64,000 nucleotides of DNA from Clostridiales bacterium (lineage in GTDB: Bacteria > Bacillota > Clostridia > Christensenellales > QALW01): NCBI GenBank assembly GCA_015069575.1, contig SVIH01000006.1, forward strand, positions 1 through 64,000, in the 5' to 3' direction. Shown here one piece after another: positions 48,926-58,781 of this stretch. The notes under the pieces are model-generated. The model was not told the origin of the DNA, searched no databases, and saw nothing but the letters and a program-made list of their open reading frames with translations. The position numbers and the translations under genes were made by a program. Numbering within the stretch: position 1 is the stretch's first letter; each line of letters begins with the position of its first letter.

Positions 48926-50356
48926 ATGTTTAATAAATTCTTCAAAAATTTCATATGCCTGATGTTAGCGTTGTTTGTTCTTACAATGCCCGTCTATGCA
49001 TATAATGATTTATCAACAGGACAATCCCTCAACATTACAGCAAAAGGAGCAATCCTGGTAGATATTAACACAGATATAATTTTGTATAAAAGATATATGG
49101 ATGTGGCTATCCGCCCTGCAAGTATGACGAAAATGATGACGCTGCTTGTTGCCTGGGAGCAAACAAAGGACAGGCAGAATGAAATCGTTTCTTTAACAAA
49201 AGAAATGATAGAAGTGCCCGATGGTTCATCAAGCGCTAATCTGAACGTCGGGGATAAAGTAAGCATACACGACCTTTTTTACGGTATGATGCTTCCATCA
49301 GGTAACGATGCCGCAAAAGCACTTGCATATATTGTTTCAGGTAATGAAAAGAATTTTGCCCTTTTAATGAATGATAAGGCAAAGGAACTTGGTATGAACA
49401 AGTCTTCCTTTAAAAATGCTCACGGTTTTGATGAAGATGGTCACTACACCACACCCTACGATCTTGCGCTTTTATGCCAAGTGCTTTGTGAAAACGAAGA
49501 ACTTATAAAAATATTTTCAAGTGTTAAATATACGATGACCGTTTATCCAAAGGGTGATATGAACGCGCCTACAAAACAAACTGTTTATAACACGAACAAT
49601 ATGATCAATAAAAACAGCGCCGAATATTTTGAAGGATTTAAAGGGATAAAAACGGGCTTTACTAAACTTGCAGGCAACTGTCTTGCGGGATATTATGAAA
49701 AAGATGGCAGAAAAATGGTGGCTGTTGTTGCTAACTGTGACCCTACTATGCGCGATAGCGATATGCGTGCGCTATTAAATTATGGAATTAAAACTTTTGA
49801 TACATTAAATCTTAACGAGATATTTGCTACTAAAAAAATAGTGGTTGATCTTGAAAATGCTTCATTAGGTGATGAATCCAACGGTCAGTTAGAGTTGTAT
49901 CTTCAGCACCATGAAGAATCAAAATATATAACTCTTTCAAAAAGTGAAGGCACAAAAATACGCACCTTTGATGAAAACACAGTTTCCATCCGTTATCCCG
50001 TTGTAAGCGCGCCTGTGAAGTCAGGACAACAGGTGGGCACAGTTGAATTTGTTTATGATAACGAAGTAATATATTCTGCCCCTGCCCTTGCTTCCCGCAT
50101 GGTTGATGCGGAAATTGAAAGCCCTAAAGATCTTGTTTCACTGGGAATAAAGGGTAAAATAAGGGTATCATTTGGATTTTTAACAAGCAGATATTTTTTG
50201 ATTCCCCTGTTTTCTTTTGTGGCTCTGGCGGGTTTTGTTTATGGTTTTTTGCTTTTGAGAAAAAGACAAGTGATGCGTGTGCGTGCAAGGCAAAAGAACG
50301 GAATGGCGCGGCGCAGAAGAAGTTCTGCAACACGACAAAATAACAGAATGCTTTAA
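48926..50356 (+). CDS. D-alanyl-D-alanine carboxypeptidase (S11 family, PBP5/DacF type)
   Basis: Trims the terminal D-Ala from peptidoglycan stem peptides. 476 residues from the ATG at 48926, chosen for its GGAG site seven bases upstream; a TTG five codons earlier lies before that site. Signal peptide ends near MPVYA. Active-site motifs: S66-M-T-K69, SGND and KTGFTKLAG. A C-terminal beta domain is followed by a transmembrane helix (LIPLFSFVALAGFVYGFLLL) and a basic tail. mntP follows after 13 bases. Confidence 0.93.
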   Translation: MFNKFFKNFICLMLALFVLTMPVYAYNDLSTGQSLNITAKGAILVDINTDIILYKRYMDVAIRPASMTKMMTLLVAWEQTKDRQNEIVSLTKEMIEVPDGSSSANLNVGDKVSIHDLFYGMMLPSGNDAAKALAYIVSGNEKNFALLMNDKAKELGMNKSSFKNAHGFDEDGHYTTPYDLALLCQVLCENEELIKIFSSVKYTMTVYPKGDMNAPTKQTVYNTNNMINKNSAEYFEGFKGIKTGFTKLAGNCLAGYYEKDGRKMVAVVANCDPTMRDSDMRALLNYGIKTFDTLNLNEIFATKKIVVDLENASLGDESNGQLELYLQHHEESKYITLSKSEGTKIRTFDENTVSIRYPVVSAPVKSGQQVGTVEFVYDNEVIYSAPALASRMVDAEIESPKDLVSLGIKGKIRVSFGFLTSRYFLIPLFSFVALAGFVYGFLLLRKRQVMRVRARQKNGMARRRRSSATRQNNRML

Positions 50357-50369
50357 AGGATAAAATTTT

Positions 50370-50954
50370 ATGATGAATTTAGCGTTTTATATTACCGCAA
50401 TTATGCTTGGCGCAGGCTTGGCGGCAGATGCATTTTCTGTTTCACTTGCCAACGGCTTAAACGAGAGCAAAATGAAAACAAGTAAAATGTGCCTTGTTGC
50501 CGGTCTTTTTGCTGTGTTTCAAGGCTTTATGCCAATGCTTGGTTGGCTTTTTGTGCACACTTTAGTTGAATATTTTAAGGTGTTTGAAAAGTTTATTCCA
50601 TGGATTGCATTGATTCTTTTAGTGTTTATCGGTGGCAAAATGCTTATAGAAGCCTTTGATAAAAAATGCTCTGAAGAAGAGGTTAAACCTCTTGGAATCG
50701 GCTTGTTGCTTATACAGGCACTTGCAACAAGTATTGATGCGCTTTCTGTTGGTTTTACCATTGCAACGCATACCATTATTCCTGCGCTTGCAACTGCTTT
50801 AATAATCGCATTAATTACTTTTGTGGTTTGCTTTATGGGTATAATTATCGGCAAAAAATTTGGCACAAAATTAAAAAATAAAGCGTCACTTTTAGGTGGC
50901 TTAATTTTAATAATTATTGGTATAGAAATTTTTATTACAGGAATGATAGGATAG
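50370..50954 (+). CDS. mntP: Manganese efflux pump MntP
   Basis: Six-helix membrane exporter (formerly YebN/DUF204). 194 residues with the duplicated family motif: GAGLAADAFSVSLANGL in the first half and ALATSIDALSVGFTIA in the second, which carry the conserved Asp residues. AAAGGAT precedes the ATG pair. Expression may join the carboxypeptidase transcript. Its neighbour across the terminator is the perR-rubrerythrin oxidative stress pair, where Mn(II) balance matters. Confidence 0.92.
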   Translation: MMNLAFYITAIMLGAGLAADAFSVSLANGLNESKMKTSKMCLVAGLFAVFQGFMPMLGWLFVHTLVEYFKVFEKFIPWIALILLVFIGGKMLIEAFDKKCSEEEVKPLGIGLLLIQALATSIDALSVGFTIATHTIIPALATALIIALITFVVCFMGIIIGKKFGTKLKNKASLLGGLILIIIGIEIFITGMIG

Positions 50955-51028
50955 AAAAAAGCACCGCAAAATGAAGTGAACCCCAAAAGTGTCTAACTTT
51001 TGGGGTTCATATCATTTGGGTGCTTTTT
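50955..51028. terminator. Long bidirectional terminator containing an IS-end-like palindrome
   Basis: The outer arms AAAAAAGCACC (50955-50965) and GGGTGCTTTTT (51018-51028) form a terminator for mntP (+) and rubrerythrin (-). Between them is a 33-base palindrome at 50977-51009 (TGAACCCCAAAAGT...ACTTTTGGGGTTCA) that shares the 24-base run 95-119 with the IS end at the left edge. The whole can fold as one hairpin with arms of over 30 bases. Confidence 0.8.
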
Positions 51029-51035
51029 GCTAATT

Positions 51036-51572
51036 TTAGTAATTTTCTTTTCTGATTTCAAAGTAGCTCTGGGGATGAACGCAAACGGGGCAAACCTTAG
51101 GAGCTTTTTTGCCGATTACAAGGTGACCGCAGTTACGGCATTCCCACATTGTTTCTTCAGCCTTTTCAAATACCTGTTGCATTTCAACGTTGTTTAAAAG
51201 CTTAAGATATCTTTCTTCGTGGGTCTTTTCAATAGCTGCAACCATTCTGAATTTTGCTGCGATAGCGGTAAAGCCTTCTTCTTCAGCTTCCTTTGCAAAT
51301 GTTGCGTACATATCTGTCCATTCATAGTTTTCGCCTTCTGCGGCTGCTTTAAGGTTTGCGGCTGTATCACCAAGAGCGCCTAATTCCTTAAACCACATTT
51401 TTGCGTGTTCTTTTTCATTATCAGCTGTAGCTTGGAAAATTGCTGCGATTTGCTCAAAACCTTCCTTTTTAGCTACGCTTGCAAAGTATGTGTATTTGTT
51501 GCGAGCCTGTGATTCACCTGCAAATGCTGCGTGAAGATTAGCTTCAGTTCTTGTTCCTTTTAATTCTGCCAT
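51036..51572 (-). CDS. rbr: Rubrerythrin
   Basis: Non-haem di-iron peroxidase that protects anaerobes from hydrogen peroxide. 178 residues from the ATG at 51572 (AGGAGG nine bases upstream; an 11-codon extension is rejected). The ferritin-like domain has the Glu ligands in [22 protein letters not shown] and EKTHEERY; the C-terminal rubredoxin-like domain has CRNCG and CPVC. It lies 58 bases downstream of perR in the same direction. Confidence 0.95.
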
Positions 51573-51630
51573 TTTTAAAATCCTCCTAAAATTTATAATA
51601 ATCATTTTTTATCAGGTTTATACCTGTTTT

Positions 51631-51993
51631 TTAAATTTCTTTTGCACAGTGTGGGCAAACACAGTGTAAGTTTATTGAAAACGATGTTATTTTTATGCCA
51701 TAATTTTTTTGTAAATCTTCTTTGATTCCGTGAACTTCAACATCAAAAACCTTACCGCATCTGTCACATATAGCATGCTGATGTTCAAAAATATTGCCGT
51801 CAAAACGGTCAGGCTCGCCTGCAATGGCAACGCGCATTATATATCCGTTTTCAGATAAATAATTCAAACTGTTGTATACTGTTGCAAGTGAGATGCTATG
51901 CTCTTGCCTTACTATATCGTATACTTCAGTGGCGTTAGGGTGGCAATAGCAATTTTTAACTGTATCTAATATTATCTGCCTTTGCGTTGTCAT
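51631..51993 (-). CDS. perR: Fur-family peroxide regulator (PerR-like)
   Basis: 120 residues: a winged helix (SLATVYNSLNYLSENGYI) then the dimerisation domain with a His-rich metal site (EHQHAICDRCG) and two CxxC pairs (CDRC and CPHC) for structural zinc. Neighbouring rubrerythrin and a 7-1-7 inverted repeat identical in form to a Per box over its own start site support PerR rather than Fur or Zur. The N-terminus is about 10-20 residues shorter than B. subtilis PerR. Confidence 0.85.
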   Translation of the reverse strand: MTTQRQIILDTVKNCYCHPNATEVYDIVRQEHSISLATVYNSLNYLSENGYIMRVAIAGEPDRFDGNIFEHQHAICDRCGKVFDVEVHGIKEDLQKNYGIKITSFSINLHCVCPHCAKEI

Positions 51994-52014
51994 TAACCCA
52001 CCTCACTTTTAGAT

Positions 52015-52029
52015 TTAGAATTATTCTAA
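52015..52029. promoter_or_regulatory. PerR operator (Per box)
   Basis: TTAGAATTATTCTAA is a perfect 7-1-7 inverted repeat and matches the Per box TTATAATNATTATAA at 13 of 15 positions. It lies just downstream of the perR -10 box, where binding would block transcription. Confidence 0.8.
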
Positions 52030-52039
52030 TTACAAATTT

Positions 52040-52068
52040 ATTATAGCAAAGTGAAATTTGTTTGTCAA
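52040..52068 (-). promoter_or_regulatory. Promoter of perR(-rbr)
   Basis: Consensus TTGACA (52068-52063), 17 bases, TATAAT (52045-52040) on the minus strand. Confidence 0.8.
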
Positions 52069-52098
52069 TACTTTTTTTAAAAAAATTTTAAAAAAATA

Positions 52099-52122
52099 AA
52101 TGCCGGCACAAAACCGACATTA
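52099..52122 (-). terminator. Terminator of the ABC transporter operon
   Basis: On the minus strand AATGTCGG pairs with CCGGCATT (one G-U pair), followed by a T-run. Confidence 0.7.
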
Positions 52123-52125
52123 TTT

Positions 52126-52875
52126 TTAAAGTGAATTTGATAAAAACGCCTTTAAACGCTCTGATTTAGGATTATCAAAAATTTCTTCAGGGGTGCCAAC
52201 TTCTTCAATAATCCCGTTAGCCATAAAGATAACGCGGTCAGAAACTTCGCGGGCAAACTGCATTTCGTGGGTAACAACCACCATTGTTGAGTCATTATCT
52301 TTAAGTGAACGGATAACCTTTAAAACCTCCCCTGTTAATTCGGGGTCCAGTGCACTTGTAGGTTCATCAAAGCAAAGAATATCAGGGTCTAACGCTAACG
52401 CGCGGGCAATAGCAACGCGCTGTTGCTGTCCACCTGAAAGGGTGCAAGGGTAAGCGTCTTTTTTATCGTTTAAACCAACCTCTGCAATAATTTTTTCCGC
52501 CTTTTTTGTAATTTCTTCAATCTTGCCACGCTTTAAAAGTGTTGGGGCAAGGGCAACATTTTTTAAAACGGTGTATTGGGGGAACAAATTAAACTGCTGA
52601 AAAACAAGCCCGAAATGCAAGCGGTTTTCACGAAGCTTGCTATCGGAAAGCTCTTTTTTCTTTTCACCGTCAAAAATAACCTTATCACCTATTTTAATAA
52701 CGCCCTTATCTGCAAGCTCTAAAAAATTAAGACAACGCAAAAGGGTGGTTTTACCTGAACCGGATGAACCGATAATGGTAAGAACCTCGCCTTTATTAAG
52801 GGAAAAATTTATATCTTTCAAAACCTGATTTTTAGAAAAGGATTTTGAAAGATTTTCAACCTTTAAAATCTCCAT
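52126..52875 (-). CDS. Polar amino-acid ABC transporter, ATP-binding protein
   Basis: 249-residue ATPase of the GlnQ/HisP type. Walker [14 protein letters not shown]-loop [13 protein letters not shown], signature [16 protein letters not shown], Walker [13 protein letters not shown] and the H-loop VVVTHEM are intact. It is the last gene of an SBP-permease-ATPase operon and starts three bases after the permease stop. The transported amino acid is not evident. Confidence 0.93.
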
Positions 52876-52878
52876 AAA

Positions 52879-53523
52879 TTAACCTTTAAAATAATTTAAC
52901 TTTTTTTCAAGATAGCCGAATAACAGGGTTAAAACACCGTTAAACAGCAAGAAGAACACGCCTGTGTAGAACAGGGGCCATATAAGACCTTTACCTGTAA
53001 AGCGTTCAGCCGCCATAAGAATTTCAGCAACTGCGATAACGCGGGCAAGGGATGTATCTTTTACAAGAGTAATAATCTCGTTTGACATTGGCGGAACGAT
53101 ACGTTTAACCACCTGTAAAAGAATAACTTTAAAAAATATCTGCGGTCTTGTTAAACCTAAAACCTTACCTGCTTCCCATTGACCCTGGGAAATGCTTTCA
53201 ATACCGCCGCGATAGATTTCTGAAAAATAGCAGGCATAATTTATTGTAAAGGCTATAATTGCCGCAAGCATACGGTTGCGCATAGGCGTATCAAACACAA
53301 GACCCGGCACGTAAAAAACAACAAAAAGCTGGAGCATCAAGGGAGTACCCCTGATGATCCAGACAAATGTTTTTACAAGGTATTTTAAGGGTTTGAATTT
53401 TGACATTGACCCCAAAGTTATTATTAAACCTAAGGGGATAGAAAACAGCAATGTTTTTATAAATAGTTCGCAATTTTCTAAAAAGCCTGCAAGCAACTCA
53501 ATTGTTACTTGTTGAAAATTCAT
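52879..53523 (-). CDS. Polar amino-acid ABC transporter, permease
   Basis: 214-residue membrane protein of the HisM/GlnP type with five predicted helices. IIRGTPLMLQLFVVFY and YFSEIYRGGIESISQGQWEA (the EAA-type coupling loop) identify the family. It lies 13 bases after the binding protein gene. Only one permease gene is present, so it probably forms a homodimer. Confidence 0.92.
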   Translation of the reverse strand: MNFQQVTIELLAGFLENCELFIKTLLFSIPLGLIITLGSMSKFKPLKYLVKTFVWIIRGTPLMLQLFVVFYVPGLVFDTPMRNRMLAAIIAFTINYACYFSEIYRGGIESISQGQWEAGKVLGLTRPQIFFKVILLQVVKRIVPPMSNEIITLVKDTSLARVIAVAEILMAAERFTGKGLIWPLFYTGVFFLLFNGVLTLLFGYLEKKLNYFKG

Positions 53524-53536
53524 TTTAATCTCCTAA

Positions 53537-54334
53537 TTAGTTAGCTTTAATTACCTTAACCTGTTTGTTCTGCATATAAGGAATAGAAATGCTCATAGCT
53601 TCAGCTCTTTCATCGGTAATTGTCATGCCGTTCCAGATGCAGTCGATGTTCTTTGCATTAAGTTCTGTTTCTTTTGCAGCCCAGCTGATTTCTTGGAATT
53701 TAGCGTTAATACCAAGTTCTGCGCAAACAGCCTTTGCAAATTCTGTTTCAAAACCGATAAGTTCACCGTTATCGTCTTTGTAGTTCATGGGTGCAAAGTA
53801 TGTGATGCCGATAATAAGTTCGCCCTTATTTTTGATGTATTCCCAGTCAGAATCAGTTTCGCTTTGCTTAAATGCATCAAAAGTTGAATCAGCAGTAATG
53901 ATTTCGCCAAGCTTATATTTATCAGCGATTTGTTTAAGTTTGCCGTTATCTTTTAAAGTTTTGATAGCTTCGTTTACTTTTGCAGTAACGTCAGAACCTT
54001 TTCTGAAAGCAATACCGTAGTTTTCTTCGTTAAAACCTGTGCCTTCAACTTTAAGGTTTTCGTAATCTGTGCCTTCACCGATTGAACCGATTGACATAAC
54101 ATAGTCAATAACAGCAGCATCTGCGGTGCCGGATGAAACTTCCATCAATGCTTTTGCCTGTGTGTCAACTGCGGTGTAGGAGTATTCCTTAAATTCATCA
54201 GCGGTCATTGCAACTGTTTCACCTGCTGATTCCTTTTCAGCAACGATAACAAGCGCTTCTTCTTCCTGGTTGCAGCCTGCAAAGCCGCAGATAGCTAAAA
54301 CAACTGCAAGTGCTAAAATAAGTATCTTTTTCAT
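53537..54334 (-). CDS. Amino-acid ABC transporter substrate-binding lipoprotein, apparently circularly permuted
   Basis: 265 residues. A lipoprotein signal ends at C21 (GFAGC). In ordinary family-3 binding proteins the IGITYFAPMNYKDDNG...GFETEFAKAVC...WNGMTITDERAE part forms the first half and the AEKESAGE...VDTQAKALMEV...YGIAFRKGSD part the second. Here the order is reversed: residues 28-145 are the usual second half, 163-265 the usual first half, joined by a linker near 146-162. The protein ends at KQVKVIKAN, where the normal hinge strand would continue. It is one uninterrupted reading frame with its own promoter, an AAGGAG site and downstream permease and ATPase genes, so it looks functional. 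Confidence 0.85.
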   Translation of the reverse strand: MKKILILALAVVLAICGFAGCNQEEEALVIVAEKESAGETVAMTADEFKEYSYTAVDTQAKALMEVSSGTADAAVIDYVMSIGSIGEGTDYENLKVEGTGFNEENYGIAFRKGSDVTAKVNEAIKTLKDNGKLKQIADKYKLGEIITADSTFDAFKQSETDSDWEYIKNKGELIIGITYFAPMNYKDDNGELIGFETEFAKAVCAELGINAKFQEISWAAKETELNAKNIDCIWNGMTITDERAEAMSISIPYMQNKQVKVIKAN

Positions 54335-54391
54335 AATAAAATCTCCTTTTGTTTTACCGCTTTATTATGCTAAAGCGATGTTGATGTGCTT

Positions 54392-54420
54392 ATAATACCG
54401 CATTTTATTAAGTATGTCAA
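54392..54420 (-). promoter_or_regulatory. Promoter of the amino-acid ABC transporter operon
   Basis: TTGACA (54420-54415), 17 bases, TATTAT (54397-54392) on the minus strand. Confidence 0.75.
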
Positions 54421-54461
54421 CTGTTTTTTTGAACTTTTTTATTTTCAAAAAAAACGGTTTG

Positions 54462-54470
54462 TGGTATAAT
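54462..54470 (+). promoter_or_regulatory. Extended -10 promoter of the U32 operon
   Basis: TGGTATAAT with no clear -35. Its predicted start site near 54477 means that the longer open frame beginning at 54414 cannot be the true start of the gene. Confidence 0.5.
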
Positions 54471-54503
54471 GTTATCGATTATGATGTTAACGGGGGGCAT
54501 AAA

Positions 54504-56522
54504 TTGAATATGTGTGAAATTCTTGCCCCAAGTGGCGCTTTTGAACAGTTGCAGGCAGCAGTAAATGCAGGCGCTGATGCGGTTTATCTTGGATACGGCG
54601 ATTTTAACGCAAGAAGAAACGCTAAAAACTTTACATTCGATGAATTGAAAAAAGCGGTTGATTATGCTCATGAAAACGGAGTTAAAGTGCATGCAACGGT
54701 AAACACTTTAATTAAAGATACTGAAATCGAAAAAATTTATTCGGTATTAACGGATCTTGCAAAAGTCAATATTGATGCAGTAATTGTACAGGATCTTGGC
54801 GTTGCAAGAATAATTAAGGAAAGTTTTCCTGATTTAATTATGCACGCTTCAACACAACTTACGGTGCATAATGTTGCCGGTGCAAAAATATTAAAAAGTC
54901 TTGGGTTTTCTCGCGTTGTACTTTCCCGCGAATTAAGCGAGAAAGAAATTGAAAAAATCTGCAAAGAAACTGATATAGAAATTGAAGTATTTATCCACGG
55001 CGCGTTATGTATGTCAATTTCAGGCGGTTGCTATCTTTCTTCAATCTTAGGGCAAAGAAGCGGTAACCGTGGTTTGTGCGCACAACCTTGCCGTCTTGAT
55101 TTTACCCTTAATAACCGCGACCACGCACTTTCTTTAAAGGATATGTGCCATATACCTTATATTAAAAGACTTAAGGAAATAGGTGTAACCAGTTTTAAAA
55201 TTGAAGGCAGAATGAAGCGCCCTGAATACGTTTACGCTTCTGTTAAAGCATGCAAACAAGCGTTAAATGGTGAAAAACCCGATCTTGAAACATTAAAAAA
55301 TGTGTTTTCCCGTTCAGGTTTTACCGATGGCTATATTTTAGGTAATCGCGATAGTGATATGTTTGGCTATCGCAAAAAGGAAGATGTTGAAAACACAGAA
55401 AAAGTTTTAAAAAGTCTTTCCGTTTATAAAAATCCTCAACAAAGAGTGCCTGTAACATTAAAAGCAATTATAAAAGATGGGGAAGAAGCCACCGTTACAT
55501 ATAATGATGGAATAAACGCGGTTGCTGTTACAGGGCAAAAACCTGTAAAAGCAATTAACAGGGAAACAGGAAAAGAAGATGTTTTAAAACAACTTTCAAA
55601 AACAGGTGGAACACCTTATTATATAAACGAAAATGAAGTTTTTGTTGAAAAAGGGCTTTCTTATCCCTTATCAGAACTTAATGCTTTAAGGCGAGAAGCA
55701 TTGGAAAAACTTTCAAAAGCAAGAATATACAGAAAAGAACATACAGTTTTACCCTTAAAAGAAGAACATTTTAAAACAAAAAGAGAGCAAAAAACAGTTA
55801 TCAGGGTTGCAAACAAAGAACAACTTAAATTTATTCAAAATGATACACCCATAATTATACCTATTGAGCACATTACACAGGAAATTTTATCAAAATACAA
55901 TAATGTAATTGGTGAAATACCATCTTTAATATTTCCATTTGATGAAGAAAAGGTTCACGAAAAACTAGCCATATTAAAGGGATTTGGGTTAAAAACCGTT
56001 TCTGTAGATAACATAAGCGGAATATATTATGCAAAAGAGCATGGTTTTAATATAATTTGTTCCTGGGGAATGAATGTATTAAACTCTTTGTCGGTTTTTG
56101 CCTTAAATGATATAGGTGTTAAGGGGATAATTGCCACCTTTGAAAGCAGCAAAAAGGGTATTTTGGAACTTTCTAACCCTGTTCCTGTTGGGCATATAAC
56201 TTACGGTTACCTTCCGTTAATGCGGATGCGCGCTTGCCCCAACAAAACACAAAAAAATTGTAAAAATTGTAACGGAATTTCTTTAATTAAAGATAGAATG
56301 AACATAGAGTTTGCACTTTTATGTAACGATAAAAAGTACACAACCCTTTTAAATTCCGTTCCTCTTTGCGTGTTTGATGAAGATATAAAAAGCGATTTTA
56401 ACCTTTTATATTTTACTTTGGAATCACCACAGATGGTTAAGGAAATTTACGAACTTTCACAACAAAATTCTGCCCCTGACTTTATAAGAACCAAAGGGCT
56501 GTACTTTAAGAACCTTAAATAG
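54504..56522 (+). CDS. U32 family protein with DUF3656-like C-terminal part (RlhA-type)
   Basis: About 672 residues from a TTG at 54504 (GGGGGG six bases upstream); the ATG at 54510 is the alternative. The U32 core starts CEILAPSGAFEQLQAAVNAGADAVYLG and carries HASTQLTVHN, VFIHGALCMSISGGCYLSS and RSGNRGLCAQPCRLDF, where the Cys residues bind an iron-sulfur cluster in characterised relatives. The longer C-terminal half fits the branch that includes RlhA, a 23S rRNA C2501 hydroxylase; the older label is collagenase-like protease. A GTTCPxxC-like cluster CPNKTQKNCKNC is near the end. Confidence 0.8.
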   Translation: MNMCEILAPSGAFEQLQAAVNAGADAVYLGYGDFNARRNAKNFTFDELKKAVDYAHENGVKVHATVNTLIKDTEIEKIYSVLTDLAKVNIDAVIVQDLGVARIIKESFPDLIMHASTQLTVHNVAGAKILKSLGFSRVVLSRELSEKEIEKICKETDIEIEVFIHGALCMSISGGCYLSSILGQRSGNRGLCAQPCRLDFTLNNRDHALSLKDMCHIPYIKRLKEIGVTSFKIEGRMKRPEYVYASVKACKQALNGEKPDLETLKNVFSRSGFTDGYILGNRDSDMFGYRKKEDVENTEKVLKSLSVYKNPQQRVPVTLKAIIKDGEEATVTYNDGINAVAVTGQKPVKAINRETGKEDVLKQLSKTGGTPYYINENEVFVEKGLSYPLSELNALRREALEKLSKARIYRKEHTVLPLKEEHFKTKREQKTVIRVANKEQLKFIQNDTPIIIPIEHITQEILSKYNNVIGEIPSLIFPFDEEKVHEKLAILKGFGLKTVSVDNISGIYYAKEHGFNIICSWGMNVLNSLSVFALNDIGVKGIIATFESSKKGILELSNPVPVGHITYGYLPLMRMRACPNKTQKNCKNCNGISLIKDRMNIEFALLCNDKKYTTLLNSVPLCVFDEDIKSDFNLLYFTLESPQMVKEIYELSQQNSAPDFIRTKGLYFKNLK

Positions 56523-56531
56523 GAGATAAAA

Positions 56532-57722
56532 ATGAAAAAATTAGAATTACTTGCACCTGCAGGTGATATGGAATGTTTAAAAACTGCATTTAAGTTTGGC
56601 GCTGATGCCGTTTATATTGGCGGACCATTTATGCAGTTAAGGTCAAAAGTAACGGGTTTTACAATAGAAGATATTGCTGAAGCAGTAAAATACGCCCATT
56701 CTTTAAACAAAAAACTGTATGTTACGGTAAATTCTTTTGCAAAGGATCAGGAATTTAAAGAAATTGTTGAATATGGCAGAAAATTAAAAGACATTAATGT
56801 TGATGCTGTTATAGTTTCTGACCTTGGTGTTATCAGCGTTTTAAGGAGTCAGGTACCTGATTTAGAAATTCATGTATCCACCCAGGCAAACTGCCAGAAT
56901 GCCTTTGCGGCAAAGGTTTATTATGATTTGGGCGTTAAAAGAATCGTGATTGCAAGGGAAATGAATTTGGAAGAAATCAAGAATTTTTCTAAAATAATTC
57001 CTGCAGATTTGGAAATCGAAGCATTTGTTCACGGCGCTATGTGTATGGCTTATTCAGGCAGATGTTTTATAAGCACTTACTTAACAAACAGAAGCGGAAA
57101 CAGGGGCGAATGTACTCAGCCTTGCCGCTGGCGTTATCACCTTGTTGAGCAAACAAGACCAAACGAGTTTTTTCCTATAGAAGAAGGAGAAAAAGGAACA
57201 ACGCTTTTGTCTTCCCGAGATATGAAATGCATCGATTTTCTTGATGAATTAATAGATGCAGGGGTAACTTCCTTTAAAATTGAAGGCAGAATGAAATCGC
57301 CTTACTATGTTGCAACGGTAGTAAATGCATACCGTCACGCGATTGATAAAACAGCGCCAACAGAACTTTTAAGTAAAGAACTTGATGCAGTAAGCCACCG
57401 CCCGTATTCAAGCGGATTTTACTTTGGCGAATTAGAAAGATATATGCCTGATGATGATATGGCGTATAAACAGGACAAAGTTTTTGCAGGAATAGTAAAA
57501 AAATGTGAAAACGGTAAATTAACAATAGAACAACGCAATTATTTTAAAGAAGGCGATGTTTTTGAAGTTATTTCGACTAAAAGTATCGGTTTAAATTTTG
57601 AAGTAAAAAATTTATATAACAGCAACAACGAAAAAGTGGATACGGCGCCGCACCCACAGGAATTAGTTACTATGGATTGTCCCTTTAATTTAGAAGAAGG
57701 GGATATTTTAAGAAAGAGGTAA
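56532..57722 (+). CDS. U32 family protein, TrhP/YegQ-like
   Basis: 396 residues with LLAPAGDMECLKTAFKFGADAVYIGG, HVSTQANCQNAFAAK, AFVHGAMCMAYSGRC and RSGNRGECTQPCRWRY, and a C-terminal beta domain. This is the branch of TrhP (YegQ), which with prephenate-derived substrate hydroxylates U34 of tRNA. It lies nine bases after the other U32 gene. The next gene, aroC, makes chorismate, the precursor of the prephenate needed by TrhP in E. coli, though this may be coincidence. Confidence 0.85.
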   Translation: MKKLELLAPAGDMECLKTAFKFGADAVYIGGPFMQLRSKVTGFTIEDIAEAVKYAHSLNKKLYVTVNSFAKDQEFKEIVEYGRKLKDINVDAVIVSDLGVISVLRSQVPDLEIHVSTQANCQNAFAAKVYYDLGVKRIVIAREMNLEEIKNFSKIIPADLEIEAFVHGAMCMAYSGRCFISTYLTNRSGNRGECTQPCRWRYHLVEQTRPNEFFPIEEGEKGTTLLSSRDMKCIDFLDELIDAGVTSFKIEGRMKSPYYVATVVNAYRHAIDKTAPTELLSKELDAVSHRPYSSGFYFGELERYMPDDDMAYKQDKVFAGIVKKCENGKLTIEQRNYFKEGDVFEVISTKSIGLNFEVKNLYNSNNEKVDTAPHPQELVTMDCPFNLEEGDILRKR

Positions 57723-57725
57723 AAT

Positions 57726-58781
57726 ATGTCTACCTTTGGCAAAAATATAAAAGTCGATATATTTGGTGAATCACACGGTGATTTTATAGGCGTAACCATT
57801 GAAAACTTAAAAAAAGGTCATAAAATCGACCTTAATAAATTACAACAGTTTGTTGATTTAAGAAAACCCGGAAATAATGAAATTTCAACTGCACGAAAAG
57901 AAGAAGATAAGGTAATAGTTCTTTCAGGGCTTGATAAAGATTTTATTACGGACGGTTCAATTTTTAAAGCAGTTATCTATAACACCAATACTCGTTCTTC
58001 AGATTACGAAAAAACCGTTCCACGCCCAAGCCATGCAGATTATCCGTCTTTTGTAAAATACGGCAAAATTTTTTCTGGTGGCGGAAAATATTCAGGTAGA
58101 TTAACAGCGGCTCTTTGCATTGCAGGAGGCGTGTTTTTGCAGATGCTAGAAAACAAAGGCATAAATTTTGACGGGCATATTTTGTCAATTCATGGCGTAA
58201 ATGACGATGATTTTGACAGTCTTAATCAAAAAAGTGAAGAAATATACAAAAAAACATTCCCCGTTATAAACGATAAACAAGGGGAGCAAATGCAAAAAGA
58301 GATACTTTTGGCAAAGGAAAAAGGCGATTCTGTTGGCGGAAAAATAGAGTGTAAAATCACAGGCTTGCCCGTTGGCATCGGGGATGGTATTTTTGATGGT
58401 ATTGATGGGCATATCGCAAACGCGGTGTTTGGAATCCCCGGCGTTAAAGGTGTTGAATTTGGCATAGGATTTAATGTTTGCGAATTGCTTGGAAGCCAGA
58501 ATAATGATGAATTTTATTTTGATAAAACAGTAAAAACATATACTAATAATTCAGGCGGAGTTACAGGCGGAATGACCAATGGTATGCCACTTGTGTTTAC
58601 CGTTGCCTTGAAGCCTACACCGTCTATTTATAAAGAGCAACGGTCGGTTGATCTTAAAACTAACGAAAATGTAACGCTAAAAATTAAGGGCAGGCACGAT
58701 CCTTGTATTGTGCAAAGGGCGGTAGCGCCTGTAATTTCTGCGTGCGCCATCGCTGTTTATGATTTAATGGAGGAATTATGA
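57726..58781 (+). CDS. aroC: Chorismate synthase
   Basis: Last step of the shikimate pathway (EPSP to chorismate, reduced flavin required). 351 residues with the N-terminal FGESHGDFIGVTIENL signature, PRPSHADYPSFVKYG, GGGKYSGRLTAALCIAG and the C-terminal KGRHDPCIVQRAVAPV. Starts three bases after the U32 gene stop and overlaps aroQ by 4 bases. Confidence 0.94.
   Translation: MSTFGKNIKVDIFGESHGDFIGVTIENLKKGHKIDLNKLQQFVDLRKPGNNEISTARKEEDKVIVLSGLDKDFITDGSIFKAVIYNTNTRSSDYEKTVPRPSHADYPSFVKYGKIFSGGGKYSGRLTAALCIAGGVFLQMLENKGINFDGHILSIHGVNDDDFDSLNQKSEEIYKKTFPVINDKQGEQMQKEILLAKEKGDSVGGKIECKITGLPVGIGDGIFDGIDGHIANAVFGIPGVKGVEFGIGFNVCELLGSQNNDEFYFDKTVKTYTNNSGGVTGGMTNGMPLVFTVALKPTPSIYKEQRSVDLKTNENVTLKIKGRHDPCIVQRAVAPVISACAIAVYDLMEEL

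Follow-up and report, generated by a model that had tools for sequence, protein, structure and literature searches.

Does the gene at 53537-54334 of the window, by which we mean the whole 64,000-nucleotide stretch of clostridial DNA that was analysed, encode a binding protein whose two halves have exchanged places, and if so, is this an accident of one genome or an instance of something that happens repeatedly? A sequence-only reading of the window had described the product as a naturally circularly permuted substrate-binding protein of an ABC transporter and had treated it as a single oddity. Profile, PDB and doubled-profile tests bear out the natural circular permutation. The protein is no single oddity, however, and belongs to a large and recurrent set.

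Results

The Pfam profile SBP_bac_3 recognizes the window protein well above its threshold (E 2.7e-31, 108.5 bits, cut-off 26.4) and does so in two separate matches, the better of which places residues 174-263 on profile positions 2-91. In PDB 3hv1, residues 163-263 fall on chain positions 13-114 and residues 56-149 on the later positions 161-254. These crossed positions imply that both halves of the window protein are homologous and that their order is reversed; the protein departs from the canonical order of family-3 binding proteins, N-half and then C-half. In our permutation test each protein is scored on a profile of normal-order homologues and again on two copies of that profile joined end to end. 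The doubling adds nothing to the score of a normal protein, whereas a permuted one aligns in one piece over the junction. For the window protein the score goes up from 157 bits to 242. Among 200 related ORFs, the test separates 122 permuted from 78 normal-order ones without any overlap in score gain: the normal-order ORFs gain at most 3.2 bits and the permuted ones at least 5.7 (at least 44.6 in class A and at least 38 in classes A and B both, the classes being those described below). Chance is excluded as the source of the reversed order. The earlier reading had said that halves matching homologues in the same order would overturn its claim; both 3hv1 and the doubled profile give the reversed order.

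The reading frame lies exactly where it had been placed, and its strand is minus (Table 1). The layout runs from the signal peptide through the canonical C-half and a linker to the canonical N-half. In the class A relatives listed, too, the lipobox lies a short way ahead of the C-half. The gene is the first in a three-gene importer operon, with permease and ATPase directly downstream, and the permease scores 70.3 bits against HEQRo_perm_3TM (cut-off 42.2). Lipobox, permease and ATPase are all intact, as had been claimed. An Rfam scan of window positions 50000-58000 for a riboswitch or T-box upstream of the binding-protein gene gave no match. Judged by eye, the neighbourhood also holds an ordinary oxidative-stress pair, a rubrerythrin-like gene adjoining a Fur/PerR-like regulator gene (51036-51605 and 51631-51993, minus strand), and two neighbouring U32 peptidase-like genes (54414-57722, plus strand) that are divergent from the importer operon.

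Table 1. Features of the permuted gene and its operon in the window, and permeases with fused binding domains from the window's order
Feature	Position	Strand	Residues or length	Remarks
Permuted family-3 substrate-binding lipoprotein gene	53537..54334	-	265 aa	profile, PDB and doubled-profile matches
Signal peptide with lipobox	54272..54334	-	1-21	FAGC at residues 18-21; read from sequence
Canonical C-terminal half, first in chain	53900..54253	-	28-145	contains D77
Second hinge segment NEENY	54017..54031	-	102-106	alignment; long strand 94-111 in model
Linker between canonical C- and N-termini	53855..53899	-	146-160	low-confidence, flexible in AF2 model
Canonical N-terminal half, last in chain	53540..53854	-	161-265	contains R243
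First hinge segment YMQNK	53564..53578	-	253-257	followed by lobe-2 strand QVKVIKAN (258-265)
Polar amino-acid ABC permease	52879..53523	-		HEQRo_perm_3TM family; 13 nt downstream of binding-protein gene
Polar amino-acid ABC ATPase	52126..52875	-		best models TcyN, GlnQ
Fused permease L233	815-4609	+	1265 aa	four binding domains, C-N-C-N-C-N-C-N
Fused permeases L232, L239				three binding domains each
Fused permeases L030, L240				two binding domains each
Fused permeases L213, L236-L238, L241, L242				one binding domain each

Where in the fold does the chain open? AlphaFold2 (AF2), run with 32 permuted relatives, gives a model (pLDDT 91.3, pTM 0.83) with a predicted two-lobed fold and two hinge strands, the long strands 94-111 and 254-263 standing at the hinge positions. 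Our residue and hinge mapping combines this model with alignment to the E. coli protein GlnBP, whose hinge segments we take to be 85-89 and 181-185. By that alignment the first segment corresponds to window residues 253-257 (YMQNK) and the second to residues 102-106 (NEENY), and both are present. After YMQNK, the chain continues through QVKVIKAN (GlnBP 90-97) into lobe 2. The break had been assigned to the first hinge strand; it lies instead in the next loop, in lobe 2 (GlnBP about 98-109), and both hinge strands survive. Nor does only one crossover remain, as had been supposed, since the hinge mapping to GlnBP keeps both. As to the suggestion that each lobe becomes continuous, this is right for lobe 1, while lobe 2 stays in two pieces. 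The main physical change predicted from sequence and model is the move of the lipid anchor from lobe 1 to lobe 2, and the consequence to look for is this anchor on lobe 2, not an altered hinge.

Sequential structure alignment gives the outcome expected of a permutant. Superposed on normal binding proteins, the N-half of the window protein fits to 1.1-1.4 Å across some 80-100 residues, of which 33-41% are identical. A sequential alignment of the full length pairs the wrong lobes (with GlnBP 8eyz, 167 residues at 2.8 Å and 7% identity), and such a pairing works at all because the two lobes are alike. Class A in effect swaps the roles of the lobes, which may explain why the permutation is tolerated.

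The permuted ORFs show four break points, which we number on 235 reference columns. Class A, that of the window protein, opens at about 103/115 (72 ORFs), class B at about 132/136 (22 ORFs), class C at 165-175 (25 ORFs) and class D at about 26/31 (2 ORFs). By alignment to GlnBP, breaks A, B and C fall in lobe 2 and break D in lobe 1. The two class D proteins are among the weakest calls of the doubled-profile test, yet inspection by eye makes them plain: the L204 chain has YYGLDMEIAQGLAQELG at its start and QLVVLTNVPFSPFEYLA at its end, and in the model of L025 the relocated terminal strand folds into place with pLDDT >90. This model aligns to the same normal proteins over ~200 residues at 1.7-2.2 Å (Z about 21-22), and the alignment leaves out the targets' N-terminal twenty residues, the strand that class D carries at its C-terminus. 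Both class D genes (L025:961-1803 and L204:1345-2196, minus strand in each) carry the break inside the first lobe-1 hairpin; they come from two separate lineages and form the rarest class. Of 61 genomes sampled as relatives of the window genome (which is itself counted), at least 13, in 11 family codes, carry one or more permuted proteins, a count that is a lower bound because sequences were taken only where they matched the window protein.

The window protein exemplifies a rearrangement that recurs in Clostridia at four loop positions and has several origins. We built a maximum-likelihood tree of 102 sequences, all rotated to canonical order, in which normal and permuted proteins interleave. 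It requires 23 changes among five states, with bootstrap not fully settled, and its well-supported branches force at least 12 changes between normal and permuted order (class A 9, class C 10, classes B and D 2 each). Two cases are nested: the class A protein L078 lies beside normal-order L142, and the class C proteins L206 and L062 lie among class B. A quick tree built before this one from 127 rows agrees in kind, and the poorly resolved trees from each half alone require 28 and 25 changes. When all permuted proteins are forced into one clade, the cost is 900 log-likelihood units (AU p 1.3e-30). The tree lacks the power to separate gain from loss, so a part of the counted changes could be returns to normal order. 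Three normal-order proteins, L171, L186 and L188, are nested among class C in the clade around L033-L036; here both reversions and unpermuted ancestors are possible.

Discussion

Could the swapped order nevertheless come from somewhere other than repeated permutation of single genes? An artefact of assembling or binning a single metagenome-assembled genome has practically no chance of being the answer. It is true that the window genome is a draft of 22 contigs and that most of its relatives are metagenome-assembled too, but the swapped order occurs in dozens of independent assemblies, isolates included, and the lipobox is joined in frame to the C-half across the class A list. Class A homologues from independent assemblies (L069-L078, L041, L042), which are 56-76% identical to the window protein, keep both the swapped order and the fused lipobox, and more distant class A proteins are found in isolates (Roseburia porci L112, Bacterium 0.1xD8-71 L100 and Bacterium 1xD42-87 L116). 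Since independent genomes share the order, we reject an assembly error at 53.5-54.3 kb, the other finding that would have undone the earlier claim. Moreover, the window gene is under purifying selection (dN 0.19 against dS 1.49 relative to its nearest relative, L069, with dS near saturation). The gene might instead be a chimera, made by joining half-genes of two paralogues and not by permuting a single gene. This draws some support from the somewhat different rates of the halves, whose identity to the nearest normal-order sequences is 0.74-0.78 for the N-half and 0.65-0.66 for the C-half. The two halves, however, largely share their closest normal-order loci, and the half-trees, though poorly resolved, have similar change counts. 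As a source of the window gene, such a chimera is unsupported, and we hold it to be highly improbable.

A single ancient permutation, spread afterwards by descent and horizontal transfer, is a very unlikely account of the whole set. In its favour, class A is widespread, and the window's closest relatives in the order-level sample, L041 and L042, belong to another family code, f31. But transfer cannot place normal-order genes within permuted clades of the gene tree, there are four distinct break points, and both the AU test on rotated sequences and the changes forced by well-supported branches contradict one permuted clade. What do the permuted proteins do? Very probably the window protein is the substrate-binding lipoprotein of a GlnH/TcyA-type polar amino-acid ABC importer, circularly permuted in its gene. 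By alignment, R243 and D77 hold the positions of GlnBP R75 and D157, which bind the α-carboxylate and the α-amino group of the ligand, respectively. Because both hinge strands and this conserved Arg/Asp pair are kept, the permuted protein would probably close on an α-amino acid as an ordinary Venus flytrap. Amino-acid uptake is the best reading, where we infer both the ligand class and the transport activity. One might argue that the protein has left transport and now acts as a sensor or decoy, since relocation of the anchor could alter docking on the permease and since the permuted Treponema protein TpMglB-2 has been discussed as a chemoreceptor too (PMC4990184). We give this little credence: the window gene still heads an importer operon, a permease-like hydrophobic ORF comes next in 115 of the 122 permuted ORFs, and permuted domains are even fused to permeases. 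The protein is probably used, as had been proposed.

How does this set compare with known systems? Both halves of the window protein are homologous to GlnH (GlnBP), TcyA and ArtJ (family-3 / type II, cluster F). It resembles the GlnH type in its predicted bilobed fold, two hinge strands, ligand Arg and Asp, and standing as the lipoprotein of a permease-ATPase operon, and differs in its reversed halves and in having chain termini and lipid anchor in lobe 2. The one natural permuted substrate-binding protein that we found described in the open-access literature is of another fold class. This is TpMglB-2 (Tp0684) of Treponema pallidum, a lipid-anchored type I protein proposed as 'Type Ic / Cluster Bc', which binds glucose in vitro and undergoes a conformational change when it does so; its relatives occur in treponemes and Gram-positive gut bacteria, and its authors suggest that the topology is perhaps an adaptation to anchoring (PMC4990184). 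The window protein shares with it the natural permutation of a lipid-anchored binding protein. However, TpMglB-2 has the type I sugar-binding fold and a single permutation that adds a fourth crossover, whereas the family-3 set keeps two crossovers and shows four recurring break points. The matches listed for the window protein are to family-3 amino-acid binding proteins and their relatives, with no type I sugar-binding families among them; it works like TpMglB-2-type permutants but is not a member of that group. A parallel in the variety of break points is offered by PDZ domains, a small beta domain for which a structure search found four natural circularly permuted forms (CIRPIN preprint, PMC12667903); for these we met with no tree showing that close homologues were permuted repeatedly. 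A search of the open-access literature for natural permutation in family-3 binding proteins brought up no account of it, which does not prove that there is none. An engineered permutant of a glutamate-binding protein was likewise sought among published work and not found.

As a rule, circular permutations turn up as solitary events of old date, while here there are many in one well-studied and easily assayed fold. The permuted binding proteins of gut Clostridia thus form a natural series on the effects of circular permutation in a working protein, and since normal-order proteins at ~70% identity exist beside permuted ones, the cost, benefit and path of the change can be tested with natural pairs. 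The pattern bears on how a tether and two lobes engage a permease, and also on the design of biosensors, in which binding proteins are cut and rejoined. In practice, aligners that follow chain order match up the wrong lobes, so that permuted proteins are poorly served by structure searches and annotation. A bolder proposal has two parts, which we can put forward together only tentatively, as a combination that is possible but unlikely: gut Clostridia may be a permutation hotspot, with four loops re-cut more than ten times and break points shifting between close relatives, and selection may favour a shift of the lipid tether onto lobe 2 and away from lobe 1 (as in three of the four break points), with fused tandem arrays as the route.

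How may the permuted order have come about? We infer tandem duplication with in-frame fusion, followed by loss of the outer half-domains. Terminal overlaps that might be relics of duplication were considered in L051, L033 and L035 (10-35 doubly covered profile columns) and rejected, being short or running into the signal peptide. No 1.5-domain or tandem lipoprotein intermediates were found for the free permuted proteins, and the window gene retains no terminal repeat, its two short repeat pairs being uninformative. A search with the 801-aa fused protein L030 as query found eleven permeases in the window's order that carry one to four N-terminal fused binding domains (Table 1), and all eleven start with a C-half and finish with an N-half. 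Arrays of this kind show that the domain does occur in fused repeats. They offer a simple path to permutation because trimming at the two ends can remove half-domains and still leave complete domains between them. In the tree, the array domains stand far from the free lipoproteins, so that this path is a suggestion rather than a demonstration. The model for binding domains fused to a permease is GlnPQ, with SBD1 at residues 29-251 and SBD2 from 255, both in normal order (PMC8025302). The arrays resemble it in domain family, tandem domains, short linker and permease fusion, and differ in beginning with a C-half and ending with an N-half. One genome (G122) holds several fused permease genes that differ in domain number.
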